This document shows, piece after piece, positions 1,532-4,812 of a stretch of 45,273 nucleotides of DNA (positions within the stretch are counted from its first letter, which is position 1; each line of letters begins with the position of its first letter). The stretch spans positions 1 to 45,273 of the forward strand of contig MOEB01000033.1 in the NCBI GenBank assembly GCA_001939945.1. The letters run 5' to 3'. The stretch is from Aerophototrophica crusticola. Lineage in GTDB: Bacteria; Pseudomonadota; Alphaproteobacteria; Azospirillales; Azospirillaceae. The notes under the pieces are model-generated. The model was not told the origin of the DNA and ran no database searches. It saw nothing but the letters and a program-made list of their open reading frames with translations. The position numbers and the translations under genes are program-made.

Positions 1532-2737
1532 ATGGCCTGGTGGCGGGAGGACGGGGCCGTCCGGCGGCTGGTCGCCGACCTGTTGGCGGGGGAACTGGCG
1601 CGGCTGCGGCCGGGCCAACCCTTGCCGCCCGCCACCACCTGGGAAGACGGGCTGGAGATTGGCCCCGGCGGCCTGGGCGCCGACAGCCTTGAACTGGTCA
1701 CCCTCGCCACCACCCTGGTGGAACTGCTGCAACTCCAGAACGCCGGGCTGGAGGATTACCTGCTTGCCCGGCGCACCCTGGGCGGCTGGGTGGGGGTCGC
1801 CGCCGCCTCCCTGGCCCGCTGTGACGGGGAACTGGTGTTCCGCACCTCCGGCTCCACCGGCACGCCCAAGCCCTGCCGCCACGCCCTGGCCGGCCTGGAG
1901 GGGGAGGCGGCCGTCCTGGCCGACCTCCTGTCCGCGCCGGAACCGCCACGCCGGCTGCTGGCCGCCGTTCCCTGCCACCATATCTACGGCTTCATCCACA
2001 CCCTCCTGCTGCCGAAGCATCTGGGCATCCCCGTGCTGGACGTGCGCGGCAAGCTGCCCGGCAGCGTCGCTGCCCTGCTGCGGCCCGGCGACCTGGTCAT
2101 CGGCTTCCCCGAGTTCTGGGCCACCCTGTTGCGCCTCGCCCCGGCCTTGCCGCCCGGCGTCACCGGCGTGACCAGCACGGCCCCCTGCCCGGACGCCGTG
2201 GCCGACGGGCTGCGGGCAAGGGGGCTGGCCCGGCTGGTGCAGGTCTATGGCTCCAGCGAGACCGCCGGCATCGGCTGGCGTGACGACCCGGCCATGCCCT
2301 ACCGGCTGTTCCCCCGCTGGTCCGCCACCCCGGACGGCACGGCCCTGCGCCGCCAGGGCGGCGACCCGCTGCCCCTGCCGGACCAGGTGGACTGGGAAGG
2401 CCTCGACCTGTTCCGCGTGGGCGCGCGGCGGGACGGGGCGGTCCAAGTGGGCGGTACCAACGTCTTCCCCGACCGGGTGGCCGCGATCCTGCGCGAACAT
2501 CCCGGCGTGGCCGATGCCGCCGTGCGCCCCTTCCCGGCGGGGGAGGGGCTGCGCCTGAAGGCGGCCGTGGTGCCCGCCGCCGGGCAGGACCCGGATGCCC
2601 TGCGGGCCGACCTGGACCGCTGGGCCGCTACCCGCCTCACCCCGGCGGAACGGCCCCGCAGCCTGGTGCTGCTGGACGCCTTGCCGCGCACCACCCTCGG
2701 CAAGCCTGCCGACTGGCCCCTGCCCGACCCCGGCTGA
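1532..2737 (+). CDS. pcl: 4-coumarate ligase of the PYP-activation family, with carrier-protein-like N-terminus
   Basis: A 401-residue adenylate-forming enzyme that activates p-coumarate for attachment to PYP (family TIGR02372, PYP-associated 4-coumarate-CoA ligase). Seen: the phosphate loop TSGSTGTPK (residues 105-113), the adenine motif YGSSETAGIG (about 239-248), a hinge-like LFRVGARRDG, and the C-terminal lysine motif LGKPAD with Lys391. It is much shorter than plant 4CL (about 540 residues). Residues 1-92 look like an acyl carrier protein: a first helix, then GADSLEL with Ser52 in the position used for phosphopantetheine, then a closing helix ARRTLGGWV. It follows pyp by 14 bases, presumably in one transcript. 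No tyrosine ammonia-lyase gene is in the window. CoA as acceptor is family knowledge; the carrier domain is my reading. Confidence 0.9.
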   Translation: MAWWREDGAVRRLVADLLAGELARLRPGQPLPPATTWEDGLEIGPGGLGADSLELVTLATTLVELLQLQNAGLEDYLLARRTLGGWVGVAAASLARCDGELVFRTSGSTGTPKPCRHALAGLEGEAAVLADLLSAPEPPRRLLAAVPCHHIYGFIHTLLLPKHLGIPVLDVRGKLPGSVAALLRPGDLVIGFPEFWATLLRLAPALPPGVTGVTSTAPCPDAVADGLRARGLARLVQVYGSSETAGIGWRDDPAMPYRLFPRWSATPDGTALRRQGGDPLPLPDQVDWEGLDLFRVGARRDGAVQVGGTNVFPDRVAAILREHPGVADAAVRPFPAGEGLRLKAAVVPAAGQDPDALRADLDRWAATRLTPAERPRSLVLLDALPRTTLGKPADWPLPDPG

Positions 2738-3006: not shown

Positions 3007-4812
3007 ATGCGGTCGCTCACCATCCGTGCCCTGTCCCTCTCCATCGCGGCCGCGCTTGGCCTCAGCGCCGCGCTGATGGTGGCGGGCTATGTGCTGATGA
3101 ACCGGGCGCAGGGGGAAGTCGGCGCCGCCTACAAGTCCCGCTACGACAGCTACCTGCTGGCGGATGAGCTGCGGCAGAGCAGCGATGACCTCACGCGCCT
3201 CGCCCGGGTCTATGTGCTGACCCAGGACCCCGCCTATGAGCAGCAGTACCTGGACATCGTCGCCATCCGCAACGGCCAGAAGCCCCGGCCCCAGGAATAC
3301 AACCGCATCTATTGGGACTTCGTCGCCGCCGACGGCAAGAAGCCGCGGCCCGACGGGGAAACCGTGGCCCTGCTGGACCTGATGAAGCGCGCCGGCTTCA
3401 CGGAGGAGGAGTTCGGCCGCCTGCGCCAGGCCGCGGCCAACGCCGACGGGCTGACCAAACTGGAAACCCAGGCCATGAACGCCGTGAAGGGCCAGTTCGA
3501 CGACGGCCAGGGTGGCTTCACCGCCAAGGGCGACCCGGACCCGGTGCTCGGCCGCCGGCTCCTGCACTCCGCCGACTACCACCGGTTCAAGGCCGAGATC
3601 ATGCGGCCCATCGACGAGTTCTTCGTGCTGCTGGACAAGCGCACGGGTGACGCGATCCGCACGGCAGAGGCGCGGGTGAAGGTCTGGGCCAGCATCCTGG
3701 CGGTGGCGTCCCTGATGCTGGCCGTGTCCGTCGCCGCCACCGTCTGGGTGCTGCGCCGCCGGGTGGTGGGGCCCATCGGGCGCATCACCGCCACCCTGAC
3801 CCGCCTCGCCGCCAACGACCGCGCCGTGGCCGTCACCGACACCGACCGGGCGGACGAGCTGGGCGACATGGCAAGGGCCGCGGAGGTGTTCAAGCGCAAC
3901 CTGGAAGAGACGGAGACCCTCCGCCGGGAACAGGCCGCCGCCGACCAGCGGGCGCGTGAGGAGCGCAAGGCCACCCGCGCCCGCTTCGCCGAGGAGTTCG
4001 AGCAGATGGTGGCGGAGAAGATCAGCCACCTGGCCCGCGCCGTGGGCACCCTGCGTGAGGGGGCGCAGCACATGCTGGGCACCGCCGACGACACGTCCCA
4101 CCGCTCCGGCGTCGTGGCCTCGGCGGCGCAGCAGGCCACCGGCAACGTCCAGACCGTGGCCGCGGCGGCAGAGGAACTGTCCGCCAGCGTGTCAGAGATC
4201 GCCCGCCAGGTGGTCGGCGCCTCCCGCGTGGCGGAACAGGCGGTGGCAGAGGCCACGGCCACCCGCGGCAGCGTGCGCGAACTGGCCGACGCCGCCCAGC
4301 GCATCGGCGCCGTGGTCCAGCTCATCCAGGACATCGCCAGCCAGACCAACCTGCTGGCCCTGAACGCGACGATCGAGGCGGCGCGGGCGGGCGACGCCGG
4401 CAAAGGCTTCGCCGTCGTGGCGGGGGAGGTGAAGAACCTGGCCACCCAGACCGCCAAGGCCACGGAGGACATCCAGGCCCAGATCCAGTCCATCCAGGCG
4501 GAGACGACCCGTGCCGTCACCGCCATCGAGGGCATCAGCCGCACCATCGGGGAGATCAGCGGCATGACCGGCGCCGTGGCTGCCGCGGTGGAACAGCAGG
4601 GCGCCTCCACCCATGAGATCACCCGCAACGTCCAGCAGGCCGCCGGCGGCACGCAAGAGGTCAGCCGCACCATCGCCGGCGTCAGCACCGCCGCCGCCGA
4701 CACCCGCCAATCCGCCGGCACCCTGCTGCGCTCCGCCGAGGAACTGGGCGAACTGGCCCAGGCCCTGCGTGGCGACGTGGACGGCTTCCTGAAGCGCATA
4801 CAGGTGGGGTAG
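3007..4812 (+). CDS. Methyl-accepting chemotaxis protein
   Basis: A 601-residue transmembrane chemoreceptor. Membrane segment 1 spans about residues 6-29; a mainly helical periplasmic region follows with the pattern [18 protein letters not shown] and [12 protein letters not shown], also met in other sensor proteins with no known ligand; membrane segment 2 is about 224-247, then HAMP (about 250-300) and the signalling domain. The highly conserved hairpin tip is present ([20 protein letters not shown], about 446-465). GGGAGG at 2997-3002 supports this start. It lies 270 bases after pcl on the same strand, so it may read out PYP or p-coumarate-related signals, but that link is inference from position only. 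It has no tethering pentapeptide that I can recognise. Confidence 0.93.

Follow-up and report, generated by a model that had tools for sequence, protein, structure and literature searches.

A carrier-like N-terminal domain in the p-coumarate ligase of photoactive yellow protein and its candidate phosphopantetheine site

The p-coumarate ligase (pCL) encoded next to the photoactive yellow protein (PYP) gene begins, almost certainly, with a real carrier-like domain, which is followed by a short adenylating core and a C-terminal domain. On balance, we consider it probable that this domain is pantetheinylated at Ser52, loaded with p-coumaroyl in cis and used to pass the acyl group to Cys72 of PYP; that such a route would strictly bypass the free CoA ester is about an even matter.

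The ligase gene and its neighbours

In the window (the whole stretch of 45,273 nucleotides that was analysed), the PYP gene is followed after a gap of 14 nt by the pCL gene on the same strand, and is presumed to be its upstream partner in an operon (Table 1). Directly downstream of the ligase gene lies a gene for a methyl-accepting chemotaxis protein (HAMP, MCPsignal; 3007-4812), which is a possible link to phototaxis.

Among the closest known systems is TIGR02372, the 4-coumarate--CoA ligase of PYP activation, whose profile matches pCL along its length (positions 6-384 of 386), including the N-domain, and beside pyp. The window ligase differs in scoring 324.7 bits, below the curated cut-off of 334.7 bits, and is a near relative of the family rather than a strict member; 12 of the 17 TIGR02372 matches in the same order also fall below 334.7 bits. 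The first 102 residues of pCL match TIGR02372 positions 6-91 by themselves (E 1.7e-11), so the N-domain is a feature of the family and not an accident of one gene. The Pfam AMP-binding match (PF00501) begins at profile position 170 of 384, at pCL residue 105, in agreement with the earlier note on this DNA, which had stated that the usual N-terminal part of a 4CL is absent. From there on, pCL has what defines an ANL adenylating enzyme: TSGSTGTPK, which we take to be the P-loop, the PF00501 match, a PF13193 C-terminal domain and Lys391, presumably the catalytic lysine of adenylating enzymes. pCL shares the core fold, P-loop and C-terminal domain with the 4-coumarate/benzoate-CoA ligases of the ANL superfamily, but it lacks the first 169 AMP-binding positions and has the carrier-like domain instead.

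Table 1. Features of the PYP and ligase genes in the window
Feature	Position	Strand	Basis
Photoactive yellow protein (PYP) gene, 128 aa	1131..1517	+	TIGR02373, 200.7 bits against a cut-off of 143.05; Cys72 codon 1344-1346
p-Coumarate ligase (pCL), 401 aa, ATG start	1532..2737	+	TIGR02372, 6e-97 over residues 8-391; PF00501 and PF13193; full model pLDDT 92.5
pCL N-terminal carrier-like domain, residues 1-97, predicted helices 9-25, 52-66, 75-79, 83-97	1532..1822	+	AlphaFold2, Foldseek, PDB-sequence profile search, hhalign
Asp51-Ser52-Leu53, candidate phosphopantetheine site; Ser52 codon AGC 1685-1687	1682..1690	+	Conservation and codons in pyp-type homologues
Presumed P-loop TSGSTGTPK, residues 105-113, adenylating core; starts 54 residues past Asp51	1844..1870	+	Alignment and spacing
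Lys391, C-terminal domain of pCL	2702..2704	+	Invariant in 41 aligned sequences

Fold of the N-domain

The AlphaFold2 model of residues 1-98, for which 36 aligned N-domains served as input, has a mean pLDDT of 95.0 and a pTM of 0.87. It consists of four helices, with Ser52, which sits within LGADSLE, opening helix II; the predicted model thus has both the four-helix fold and the Ser placement of a carrier. Since helix IV runs from residue 83 to 97, the domain ends near residue 97; the earlier note had recognized the carrier-like domain correctly but had closed it at residue 92. In a Foldseek search of the PDB, the top 33 of the 46 matches were carriers, judged by title or, for chains in larger complexes, by inference (prob at most 0.99, TM by target at most 0.80), and the E-values were weak, the best being 0.19. 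The non-carrier matches were seven unrelated chains (ranks 34, 36, 38, 39, 41, 42 and 46). No adenylating enzyme chain was among the 46 matches, and the reading of the N-domain as a trimmed N-subdomain of an adenylating enzyme was therefore rejected.

Sequence profiles led to the same class of proteins. The N-domain profile gave 55 matches at E <= 10 against all PDB sequences (best E 0.0024), and 53 of them are named carrier proteins or complex I carrier subunits, the other two being PigH and bS6c; in the best alignment, lgaDSLel of the family falls on the DSL of an ACP from Plasmodium (PfACP, 3gzl). Comparison of 64 pyp-type N-domains with 39 carriers by hhalign, 35 of the 39 being presumed ACPs that were selected by motif in the loci of the relatives themselves, returned a prob of 72.9, a score of 31.9 and an E-value of 3.1e-5, while 100 column shuffles reached at most a score of 17.6 and an E-value of 0.011, and the reversed alignment an E-value of 0.31. 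Predicted fold, profiles and hhalign together bear out the earlier proposal of a carrier-like N-terminus with Ser52 at the phosphopantetheine position, and the comparison with ACP and PCP folds that had been suggested as a check returned a carrier bundle.

In residues 1-102 of pCL, Pfam had no family at E <= 10, PF00550 (PP-binding) included, and a PF00550 search of the window's own genome gave five matches, the pCL N-domain not being one of them. The N-domain behaves like a carrier in these comparisons, yet by score it is not a PF00550 member, and the missing Pfam match may explain why the domain went unnoticed. A chance resemblance, in which an unrelated helical domain happens to hold a GADSL-like motif, would be in keeping with such weak single-sequence scores (no Pfam match, the Foldseek E-value), but it is very improbable because the fold, profile and profile-profile tests all indicate carriers and the motif lies at the start of helix II.

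In the full-length model, the linker from helix IV to the first core strand comprises about 3 residues, and in 32 of 42 rows the P-loop starts 54 residues beyond Asp51; the carrier therefore seems to be rigidly held, unlike NRPS carriers, which swing. On this model, the arm would have to reach the active site from a fixed position, unless the role of the domain is mainly structural. Among the best 50 of 1561 matches, the full model lies 5.8 Å from the 4-chlorobenzoyl-CoA ligase structure titled as thioester-forming (3cw9), as against 12.8-12.9 Å for 3cw8, 1t5d and other entries of that ligase, and 5.9 Å from the MenE structures 5x8f and 5x8g, which we take to be in the thioester-forming state, as against 11.9-12.4 Å for the MenE entries 5bus, 5bur, 5buq and 5gtd.

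The absence of a PP-binding match, the weak Foldseek E-values, the hhalign prob of only 72.9 and the short linker speak against a functional carrier working in cis. The main rival is a structural role: a carrier-derived domain would now only replace the missing adenylating N-terminal part, or dock PYP, with Ser52 retained to cap the helix at its N-terminus or to make a contact, and the acceptor would be CoA. The tight join and the constant spacing would suit such a role, as would the likeness of the core to benzoate-CoA ligases and MenE and the published account, which has CoA as the acceptor (passages of PMC12826048). We regard the structural role as rather unlikely.

Ser52 among the homologues and their gene contexts

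Homologues came from contigs of named genomes (10 loci), from plasmids (11 records, five of them fetched) and from overlapping genome sets, in which they were found in 17 of 82 genomes (order), 2 of 398 (phylum), 7 of 385 (class), 6 of 399 and 24 of 295; the order, phylum and class sets each include the window's own genome. Rows were dropped when the N-domain was missing (L044) or truncated (L073, L077, L079, L087) or when the place was already represented (L162, the same as L015). In the first alignment of 41 rows, Asp51 and Ser52 were present in 40; the exception, the Desulfovibrio ligase of L017, was counted within the 41 rows and later reassigned to a Ser-less group once its gene context was seen. 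With L017 set apart, Ser52 is found in all 64 pyp-type rows, Asp51 in 63 and Leu in 53 (Phe in 8, Met in 3), and Asp51 and Ser52 are the two most conserved columns of the N-domain. The pyp-type rows thus have the conserved Asp-Ser-Leu site of a carrier, and the invariance of Ser52, which the earlier note had proposed to check, holds in 64 of 64.

The codon of Ser52 is TCN in 52 of these rows and AGY in 12, the latter spread over three parts of a tree of 101 family and four outgroup rows. At least two changes separate TCN from AGY, so the Ser has been retained through codon changes for which a single step does not suffice. At a helix N-cap, Asp, Thr or Asn should also be tolerated. The retention of Ser in every pyp-type row despite the codon switch, though a homologous domain elsewhere manages without it, argues against a purely structural residue, and so does the conservation of Asp51 beside it, as in real carriers (the ACPs of the window's own genome).

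That homologous domain belongs to the group of L017, in another order, where 60 of 247 genomes have such a ligase, at 61 places (E <= 1e-35; L017 and L082 are one place). These Ser-less enzymes have the same core, and hhalign shows their N-domain to be homologous to that of the pyp-type ligases (E 2.6e-8, 94 columns). Its match to carriers, however, is poor, with E 0.017 and score 16.1 as against E 0.035 and score 14.1 reached among 100 shuffles of its own. An in-register Asp-Ser-Leu/Met occurs in none of the 57 assessable Ser-less rows in three alignments. Eight rows retain LG(L/F)D but have Ala, Gly, Thr or Arg in place of the Ser, which in the alignment looks like a relic; in L093, a DSL string lies close to the site but is shifted out of register, and a Ser is aligned at position 52 by one of three methods in L059, L083 and L091 and by the other two in L080, in no case before Leu or Met. 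Since the homologous N-domain persists without the Ser, it can evidently also serve in a way for which phosphopantetheine is not required, and it is this persistence of the fold that makes the structural role the main rival.

The presence or absence of the Ser maps as one change on the tree of 101 family and four outgroup rows (support 51) and again as one change on a second tree of 112 rows without outgroup (support 89; the 101 rows plus 24 new ones minus 13 long or truncated ones). On the first tree, the long outgroup branches leave the root of the family unsure and gain of the Ser inseparable from its loss. With a single change, any correlation with gene context rests on one independent event.

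The gene contexts of the two groups differ. PYP was found at E <= 1e-8 in 34 of 36 genomes of a mainly pyp-type set (26 over the PYP cut-off; the misses are those of L017 and L018) and in 22 of 23 of a second one (20 over the cut-off; the miss is that of L179). L018 and L179 are Ser-bearing ligases in genomes without a PYP match, whose assemblies may be incomplete. In the Ser-less group, none of 60 genomes (59 plus that of L017) gave a PYP match; the search of the 59 had no positive among its own controls, while the same family search was positive in the pyp-type sets. Neither the window nor 40 pyp-type loci of ~3-9 kb, a set outside L158-L182, gave a separate ACP in a search with a profile that held one wrong row (L050). 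A separate ACP gene near pyp that would serve the ligase was therefore rejected, the only ACP-profile matches being the N-domains of the ligases of L037 and L039.

By contrast, of the Ser-less loci examined (41 of the 61 places, mostly 11-17 kb, with L017 at 8.9 kb), 37 gave matches to a separate ACP and to both ketosynthase queries, and 35 to an acyltransferase. Operon-like acyltransferase-ACP-KS-KS-ligase clusters, in which the ligase N-domain is carrier-like and Ser-less, are seen at L017 (1-4927) and among L118-L157, and Pfam names the acyltransferase, ACP and ketosynthase parts at L017. No ACP lies nearby in L121, L126, L128 and L136, three of which have ligase frames of ~4 kb. In L060 and L065, a Ser-less ligase shares one long frame with an aromatic amino acid lyase truncated at the end of the locus, and for the roughly 400 residues that separate the two Pfam has no match at E <= 0.001; the lyase in both fusion frames scanned suggests that the Ser-less enzymes, too, activate a hydroxycinnamate. 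We take these clusters to be of the aryl-polyene type. The relatives there lack the Asp-Ser-Leu site of the window ligase, and the separate ACP could supply the arm.

These contexts fit a tendency for the Ser to be retained where a separate ACP is not available and lost where one is mostly present, and the four Ser-less loci without an ACP speak against a simple rule. Given the single change on the tree and the two Ser-bearing genomes without PYP, the contrast is support, not proof. The objection that the Ser-less homologues disprove the carrier idea was set aside in view of the same single change, the PYP not found and the ACP matches in most loci.

Several other arrangements were observed among the ligases. 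L049 (G930:C1:133875-137373) has four PYP-like matches around one very divergent ligase in which Asp-Ser-Leu is still present. Genome G1648 carries two ligase copies, L175 and L182, the second of which resembles L179 (G1515). The plasmid-borne ligases L036, L037, L038 and L039 adjoin GGDEF/EAL genes and small ORFs, the annotations of which read PYP, phosphonate transporter, hypothetical or PAS protein; those annotated as phosphonate transporter, hypothetical or PAS protein may be PYPs as well.

Routes of p-coumarate to PYP

Taking residues 1-97 as a carrier domain fused ahead of a shortened adenylating core, the in-cis route that we favour would proceed as follows. A host phosphopantetheinyl transferase would place phosphopantetheine on Ser52; the window's own genome has two genes of the PF01648 phosphopantetheinyl transferase family. 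The core would convert p-coumarate and ATP to p-coumaroyl-AMP, the C-terminal domain would rotate to the thioester-forming state, and the Ser52 arm would accept p-coumaroyl in cis. The loaded carrier would then dock on apo-PYP, the product of the gene in front, and p-coumaroyl would move to Cys72 through thioester exchange. A co-expression study of 2003 reportedly used E. coli, which has phosphopantetheinyl transferases; its result would then fit either route.

In the published account, pCL, whose activity was demonstrated experimentally, attaches p-coumarate to CoA and the ester then reacts with apo-PYP (passages of PMC12826048); CoA is named as the acceptor also in a passage of PMC6273459, and pCL is described as promoting the thioester bond to Cys69 in one of PMC9664959. 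According to a passage of PMC12393337, apo-PYP was labelled at Cys69 by chemically activated p-coumarate in E. coli cells. Among the literature matches listed (titles, abstract openings and passages), we found no description of a carrier domain in pCL, and the words carrier and phosphopantethein- are absent from the main text of the PYP family papers PMC12826048 and PMC9664959.

A second PYP domain is encoded in the window's own genome, outside the window (G000:C57:57719-58048), in a 930-aa open frame and with 156.6 bits, over the cut-off; p-coumarate thus has at least two possible acceptors there. The carrier may accordingly be functional in trans or on a side route, with the ligase also making p-coumaroyl-CoA and the holo-carrier mainly raising the local concentration or loading the second PYP-domain protein. 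This second acceptor and the published view of CoA-ester formation (passages of PMC12826048) are consistent with such an arrangement, which we hold to be improbable.

The in-cis route has its closest parallels in NRPS adenylation-carrier didomains and FAAL-ACP fusions, where an adenylating core and a carrier share one chain and a tethered thiol captures the acyl-AMP. pCL differs from both in that its carrier stands in front, is joined by ~3 residues and would serve a protein-modification pathway. FAAL-ACP didomains are named in a passage of PMC8460268.

The bacterial blue-light sensor PYP serves as a model photoreceptor, and the attachment of its chromophore has been described as a reaction with p-coumaroyl-CoA (passages of PMC12826048). 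If the in-cis route holds, a built-in carrier would change this step, the chromophore being handed over from a built-in arm and not from free coenzyme A, and a single residue, Ser52, is named for testing. The yield of recombinant holo-PYP would then be expected to depend on a phosphopantetheinyl transferase, and pCL would provide a compact enzyme with which aromatic acids could be attached to a cysteine of a protein.
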